In this document: positions 36,154 through 36,424 of the stretch, piece after piece
How positions within the stretch are numbered: position 1 is the first letter of the stretch
How the letters are laid out: the number at the start of each line of letters is the position of its first letter
Source of the DNA: Parcubacteria group bacterium
GTDB lineage: Bacteria > Patescibacteriota > Patescibacteriia > Magasanikbacterales > GCA-002688135
Length of the DNA: 45,604 bases
Assembly (NCBI GenBank): GCA_002688135.1
Contig: NZCD01000069.1
Span: 1 to 45,604 of the forward strand
Reading direction: 5' to 3'
Notes under the pieces: model-generated
The model's input: the letters and a program-made list of their open reading frames with translations, nothing else
The model's database searches: none
What the model was told of the DNA's origin: nothing
Translations under genes and position numbers: made by a program

Positions 36154-36170
36154 TGGTTTTGTGTGATAGC

Positions 36171-36194
36171 AAAAACCCACCTTGCGGTGGGTTT
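36171..36194 (-). terminator. Terminator-like hairpin, minus strand
   Basis: AAACCCACC, loop TTGC, GGTGGGTTT; a T tract follows on the minus strand only. It would stop read-through from tig before the next promoter. Confidence 0.65.
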
Positions 36195-36262
36195 GCTGCA
36201 TGGATCCCATGCAGTACGGATCGGAATTGTCAGTGATTGTATTGTAGCGTGATGTGTGCTTT

Positions 36263-36293
36263 TTGTCAAGCTGTTTGTTCAATGTGTTACAAT
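36263..36293 (+). promoter_or_regulatory. Promoter of the tRNA-like gene
   Basis: TTGTCA (36263-36268), 19 bases, TACAAT (36288-36293) with a TGT extended -10. The predicted start lies about five bases before the RNA's acceptor stem. Confidence 0.6.
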
Positions 36294-36304
36294 GAGCTTG
36301 ATAT

Positions 36305-36372
36305 GGGGATGGTGTGGTACGGGATCGGAATTGTCAGTCCAGATCCCCGGGGTTCAACTCCCCGCATCTCCA
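36305..36372 (+). tRNA. D-arm-less tRNA-like gene, possibly tRNA-Asp (GUC)
   Basis: Acceptor GGGGATG (36305-36311) pairs with CATCTCC (36365-36371), discriminator A. The T arm is perfect: CGGGG-TTCAACT-CCCCG (36348-36364) and abuts the acceptor stem as in a tRNA. Only nine bases (GTGTGGTAC) stand where the D arm should be. The anticodon arm is a long hairpin, GGGATC-GGA, loop ATTGTCAG, TCC-(A)-GATCCC, joined to the T stem with no variable loop. The loop contains GTC, which would read Asp, but has eight bases instead of seven. It has its own promoter and terminator, so it is transcribed; whether it is charged is unknown. Confidence 0.6.
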
Positions 36373-36381
36373 TGTCGATTG

Positions 36382-36405
36382 AAAAAACGGCTTATGCCGT
36401 TTTTT
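36382..36405. terminator. Bidirectional terminator (tRNA-like gene and tig)
   Basis: AAAAAACGGC, loop TTAT, GCCGTTTTTT. It lies ten bases after the tRNA-like gene and 47 bases after the end of tig on the other strand. Confidence 0.85.
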
Positions 36406-36424
36406 CTTTTGTAACCTCCCCTTC

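Follow-up and report, generated by a model that had tools for sequence, protein, structure and literature searches.

Two small RNA genes are predicted side by side within the window, i.e., the entire 45,604-nt stretch of DNA that was analysed, which is contig C69 of a 1.05 Mb genome. The first gene encodes RNA1, a tRNA-like RNA of 68 nt on the plus strand (36305-36372) that was delineated by its sequence, its fold, and its homologues. It consists of I) an acceptor stem GGGGATG/CATCTCC (36305-36311/36365-36371), which holds a G3:U70 pair; II) a 9-nt linker GTGTGGTAC in place of a D arm (36312-36320); III) an anticodon-arm-like hairpin with a bulged A, GGGATC-GGA-(ATTGTCAG)-TCC-A-GATCCC (36321-36347); IV) a T arm CGGGG-TTCAACT-CCCCG (36348-36364); and V) the discriminator A (36372). 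The minimum free energy fold returns exactly this layout, in agreement with the first-pass annotation of this DNA, which had described a tRNA-like gene with perfect acceptor and T arms, a 9-base linker, and a bulged-A hairpin. The promoter and terminator that it proposed for this gene were also found on the plus strand, namely, TTGTCA-19-TACAAT at 36263-36293 and an intrinsic terminator at 36381-36406.

The same annotation reported an upstream partial copy of RNA1 (36214-36234) and a palindrome (36196-36214). Both are present as described, but the copy, taken at the time for a duplication or a decoy, is predicted to belong to a separate antisense RNA gene that has a promoter and a terminator of its own. 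This second gene encodes RNA2, an antisense small RNA of ~65 nt on the minus strand (36170-36235; start inferred from the promoter). In minus-strand order, the gene comprises the promoter TTGACA-17-TACAAT (36269-36241; 11/12 consensus positions), the stretch ACTGACAATTCCGATCCGTA, the palindrome hairpin, and the terminator hairpin. The 5' antisense part that had been read as the copy (GTACGG-ATCGGAATTGTCAGT, 36214-36234) would pair with the linker, the 5' arm, and the loop of RNA1, and the first 23 nt of RNA2 are unpaired in the predicted fold. The internal hairpin (36196-36214) holds GGGATC, which is complementary to GATCCC in the 3' arm of RNA1 and constitutes a third pairing element (h3). 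The terminator hairpin AACCCACC-GCAA-GGTGGGTTTTT with its T run, supported by sequence and fold, occupies 36170-36194, and a match to sroH on the minus strand was discarded because its score comes mainly from this terminator.

The -35 boxes of RNA1 (36263-36268) and RNA2 (36264-36269) overlap on opposite strands, so that the two divergent promoters may compete and polymerase at one may exclude polymerase at the other. Across the family, promoters match the consensus at a mean of 10.3 of 12 positions for RNA2 and 8.2 for RNA1, vs. 7.2 in shuffled sequence, and most RNA2 promoters have TTGACA as their -35 box. From these stronger promoters, an excess of RNA2 over RNA1 is predicted. The locus comprises two predicted transcription units, and both RNAs are presumably expressed.

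RNA1 is called as a tRNA neither by ARAGORN nor by Rfam at the gathering cut-off, and no Rfam 15 family matches the module at that cut-off in the window and six relatives. The best match below the cut-off is mascRNA-menRNA (32.9 bits), followed by the tRNA-like ends of tmRNA (32.1 bits). RNA1 is not a tmRNA, given its length of 68 nt, this sub-threshold score, and the true tmRNA on contig C45. G3:U70 and A73 are known identity elements for alanyl-tRNA synthetase (AlaRS), and the acceptor of the window RNA1 carries both. An earlier suggestion that RNA1 is an odd tRNA-Asp was rejected: there is no tRNA call and no D arm, the acceptor has the alanine pair, the GTC of the loop is no conserved anticodon, and a normal tRNA-Asp(GTC) lies on contig C32.

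Distribution, variants and gain or loss of the RNA pair

The window genome contains four RNA1/RNA2 pairs, located on C69, C19 (L012), C22 (L002), and C20 (L004/L016, a longer variant). A covariance model detected the module throughout the window's order (Candidatus Magasanikbacteria) in several families, and a second covariance model recovered it across the class and the phylum (Patescibacteria) in many families, the phylum counts being lower bounds since 13 candidates per genome were scored. Plain DNA similarity returned only T-arm fragments (mostly those of tmRNA) and terminators in relatives, and Rfam RF01684, used as a probe, recovers RNA1 but mostly tRNAs. No match to the exact pattern of one canonical RNA1 subtype was found in viral contigs, and no module was found in plasmids scanned by pattern or similarity.

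Canonical RNA1s (e.g., L111, L084, and L080) are more tRNA-like than the window RNA1 and possess an 8-bp acceptor, a 4-bp T stem, a small D arm with a TGG loop, and an encoded CCA; the window RNA1 is a reduced form of the family that has no real D stem. In all parsed cases, RNA2 lies within 250 bp of RNA1, either on the opposite strand or, where both share a strand, upstream or downstream of it. G3:U70 was found in 42 of 43 non-redundant modules; the matches were not filtered for that pair, and the high share is partly by design, as sequences with G3:U70 were the basis of the RNA1 models. The exception (L215:908-975) is a clear module, on a contig that ends just inside the RNA2 promoter, in which RNA1 carries C3-G70 in the acceptor and T as the discriminator; G3:U70 would therefore not determine which amino acid this RNA1 receives. 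The loop triplets of RNA1 include UAU, UGU, UAC, UAA, CGA, and others, and are not those of alanine.

Some further features were observed at individual loci. ARAGORN called L142:1142-1214 a tRNA-Trp and L224:1502-1570 a tRNA-Asp; both have G3:U70 and a nearby antisense match, and public tRNA annotations in these phyla may include mis-called RNA1 genes. In L080-L114, the leaders just 5' of RNA1 hold a conserved GGTGG that is complementary to CCACC at the RNA1 3' end, so that the CCA end may be masked in the precursor before processing. Another odd tRNA-like sequence, L189 (G000:C23:5534-5606), scores 38 bits in Rfam and is not called by ARAGORN; there are mismatches in the outer part of its acceptor stem, and it has a terminator of its own.

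The number of modules per genome ranges from zero to about five. Genome G065 carries the L103 module, and in its genus-mate G066 the aligned flanks are intact, with 10 bp between them in place of the ~302 bp that hold the entire module; another genus-mate, G032, has no module at this site and a different one (L233) elsewhere. The module sequences are widespread but patchy in occurrence, and are present or absent as a unit of ~300 bp. No conserved neighbour gene was found; the neighbours, which from their sequences we take by eye to be trmD, gyrA, SMC, rplA, and others, are unrelated. In L130, L133, and L146 (about 1400-1570), the modules are antisense and stop-free within long open frames resembling protein genes, and peptides are read through them, e.g., NLSSGGPEGNRTPETPMSKRSSPPDQAHQASLYH. 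The module peptide is missing from orthologues of the gene that hosts L146, the boundary of the empty site being inexact since the linker at that place is hypervariable. These in-frame modules resemble the insertion of Rickettsia palindromic elements (RPE) in coding frames. The L133 host protein also has repeated SVIPGSDPES-type peptides, which are probably a translated second interspersed repeat tolerated in coding sequence.

The presence or absence of ~300 bp, the in-frame antisense copies within genes, and the unrelated neighbours would suit a selfish mobile cassette (MITE-like or RPE-like) that carries, or is, the RNA pair and is kept benign by the antisense pairing. Such a cassette is improbable, as the copies within one genome are strongly diverged and neither a target duplication nor a recent burst was seen at the single junction examined.

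Complementarity and covariation between RNA1 and RNA2

An antisense partner within 250 bp and with a score of at least 31 was found for all 44 distinct non-tRNA RNA1 loci (GGG...TCC ends); these loci were not selected on partner presence, and statements on all members refer to loci parsed by script. The mean complementarity score of the 44 pairs is 46.9, vs. 28.4 +/- 3.7 in unrelated flanks that served as the null, and 84% of the pairs score above the 99th percentile of that null. The mean duplex energy is -40.2 kcal/mol for cognate pairs vs. -19.2 kcal/mol for swapped pairs, and the cognate RNA2 ranks first in 40 of 45 rows of this comparison. When the sequences are anchored on the loop, arm positions show 70-95% Watson-Crick pairing with compensatory change through all four pair types, and most loop positions reach 95-100%. 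The RNA1 loop reads N-U33-Y-R-Y-C37-A38 in most members and keeps a UNR U-turn in nearly all, the invariance of U33, C37, and A38 being partly by construction as all three are in the anchor pattern.

Helix h3, between the downstream RNA2 segment and the RNA1 3' arm, is supported across the family as well (permutation p <= 5e-5; e.g., TGAATACTT:AAGTATTCA in L149). RNA2 is thus a permuted antisense, matching first the loop and 5' arm, then the D region, and then the 3' arm, and not a simple copy. Pairs that reside together in one genome have no cross-match (G000, G031, G034, and G006). At the sequence level, the partners consequently show cognate complementarity with covariation, and co-resident pairs show mutual specificity.

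The earlier proposal of a tRNA mimic or stable tRNA-like RNA is supported. It was also suggested at first that RNA1 is a decayed tRNA, for which a normal tRNA-Asp elsewhere in the genome would speak. This gene does exist, and the copy in the window has neither a D arm nor an encoded CCA. A tRNA pseudogene with a chance partial duplication nevertheless has next to no probability: the paired structure is conserved and covaries with its partner across many families of the phylum, by which we count this reading as already refuted, and both RNAs have promoters and terminators.

The position of h3 also bears on a split, two-piece tmRNA-like RNA in which base pairing would hold together a tRNA-like domain, provided by RNA1, and the rest of the molecule, provided by RNA2. 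RNA2 pairs beside the T arm, like tmRNA helix 2, and RNA1 has G3:U70 and scores 32.1 bits against tmRNA. In true two-piece tmRNAs, the acceptor strands are supplied by different pieces, whereas both are here in RNA1; moreover, a complete tmRNA in one piece, tag reading frame included, is encoded in the genome, and a few RNA2 sequences read by eye share no tag frame. A split tmRNA is accordingly most unlikely.

Proposed function of the module

We lean slightly towards the view that the locus is a two-gene, RNA-only toxin-antitoxin-like module in which RNA2 neutralises RNA1. In this view, RNA1 is compact and tRNA-like, and AlaRS is predicted to recognise its G3:U70 pair and charge it with alanine. 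RNA2, a small RNA made from the stronger promoter, would pair by its unstructured 5' end with the UNR U-turn-type loop of RNA1; the pairing would continue down the 5' arm and the D/linker region, and a later RNA2 segment would take the 3' arm. This binding would unfold the core of RNA1 and leave the acceptor and T arms intact. The stable and harmful RNA would be RNA1, which, charged with alanine but having a loop that is not that of alanine, could bring the amino acid to the wrong place or block the ribosome; RNA2 would be the abundant, short-lived antidote. From the sequence features described above, we infer that RNA1 is alanylated and toxic, and that RNA2 inhibits it.

Ordinary decoding by RNA1 is doubtful because of C37 in the loop and the bulged anticodon arm, where an RNA that bears alanine on a molecule with such a loop would do harm or be of no use, the loop not being that of alanine. 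The window genome retains a full tmRNA (C45; tag GNVMSRVENAVAKAFGAQKLATVVA) and normal tRNA-Asp, tRNA-Ala, and tRNA-Ile(TAT), which makes RNA1 unnecessary for those tasks. Against a toxin-antitoxin function, the same pairing would be expected of a useful, regulated tRNA-like RNA with a dedicated antisense. RNA1 might, for instance, donate alanine outside ordinary decoding (in envelope chemistry or as a ribosome-rescue helper), with RNA2 as its dedicated antisense switch. In line with this, the acceptor, the T arm, and, in canonical relatives, the CCA are conserved, the loop is of the tRNA U-turn type, and antisense control is present in every case. We consider such a donor rather unlikely, as the modules are patchy within a genus, occur in up to five copies per genome, are orthogonal where compared, and have no linked gene, all of which is unlike a housekeeping supply. 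Addiction by a toxin-antitoxin pair fits best, considering the insulated and strongly promoted antisense, the patchiness, the multiple copies, and the absence of linked genes.

It is conceivable, though we hold it with a little more doubt than belief, that the family represents a new class of RNA-only toxin-antitoxin systems running through Patescibacteria, with an alanine-charged tRNA-like toxin, a core-unfolding antisense antitoxin, and dozens of insulated pairs. No earlier description of the module was found in the literature on candidate phyla, and no published account was found in which a tRNA-like RNA has an antisense RNA dedicated to it. The module is invisible to protein-based annotation and is carried by several families of the order and many others of the phylum, the members of which are hard to culture. 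The family is a natural source of dozens of orthogonal RNA/RNA pairs in which covariation is clear. It also makes it possible to ask directly at the bench, in E. coli K-12, whether a tRNA look-alike can act as a toxin.

Comparison with known systems

RNA1 resembles the tRNA-like domain of tmRNA (RF00023) in its G3:U70 acceptor, short D region, and T arm, but has neither a message-like domain nor pseudoknots, and the real tmRNA is encoded elsewhere in the genome. It also resembles mascRNA-menRNA (RF01684), a D-arm-less tRNA-like RNA, in the acceptor, the tiny D arm, and the T arm; mascRNA-menRNA is, however, a product of eukaryotic 3'-end processing, for which we know of no antisense partner, and the match of RNA1 to it is below the cut-off.

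Among toxin-antitoxin systems, toxin and antitoxin are both RNA in SdsR/RyeA (type VIII) (PMC6610125) and in CreTA (PMC8501985). As for type VIII, linked RNA partners were found here, at 44 of 44 parsed RNA1 loci and with no conserved adjoining coding partner, and specific pairing is predicted by the energies, the covariation, and the lack of cross-match. SdsR and RyeA are mutually cis-encoded, whereas the candidate toxin of the present module resembles a tRNA and its antisense RNA has a gene of its own; in CreTA, CreA guides a CRISPR effector.

The allo-tRNAs (Mukai et al. 2017, as reviewed) were reported from Clostridia, Proteobacteria, Acidobacteria, and metagenomes (PMC7609411). Their 12-bp acceptor/T branch is of the 8/4 or 9/3 type, and canonical RNA1s such as L111 and L084 are like those with an 8/4 branch in their 8-bp acceptor and 4-bp T stem, G3:U70, and disturbed stems, whereas the window RNA1 differs in being 7/5 and without a D arm. 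An antisense partner is nowhere mentioned in that review (PMC7609411). Many canonical RNA1s share the loop U-UAU-CA with the allo-tRNA-UAU group, which proved unusable for translation in E. coli and for which a tie to toxin-antitoxin systems or transposable elements has been guessed (PMC7609411). The module offers a possible answer for this non-translating group, the members of which might each be one partner in an RNA pair.
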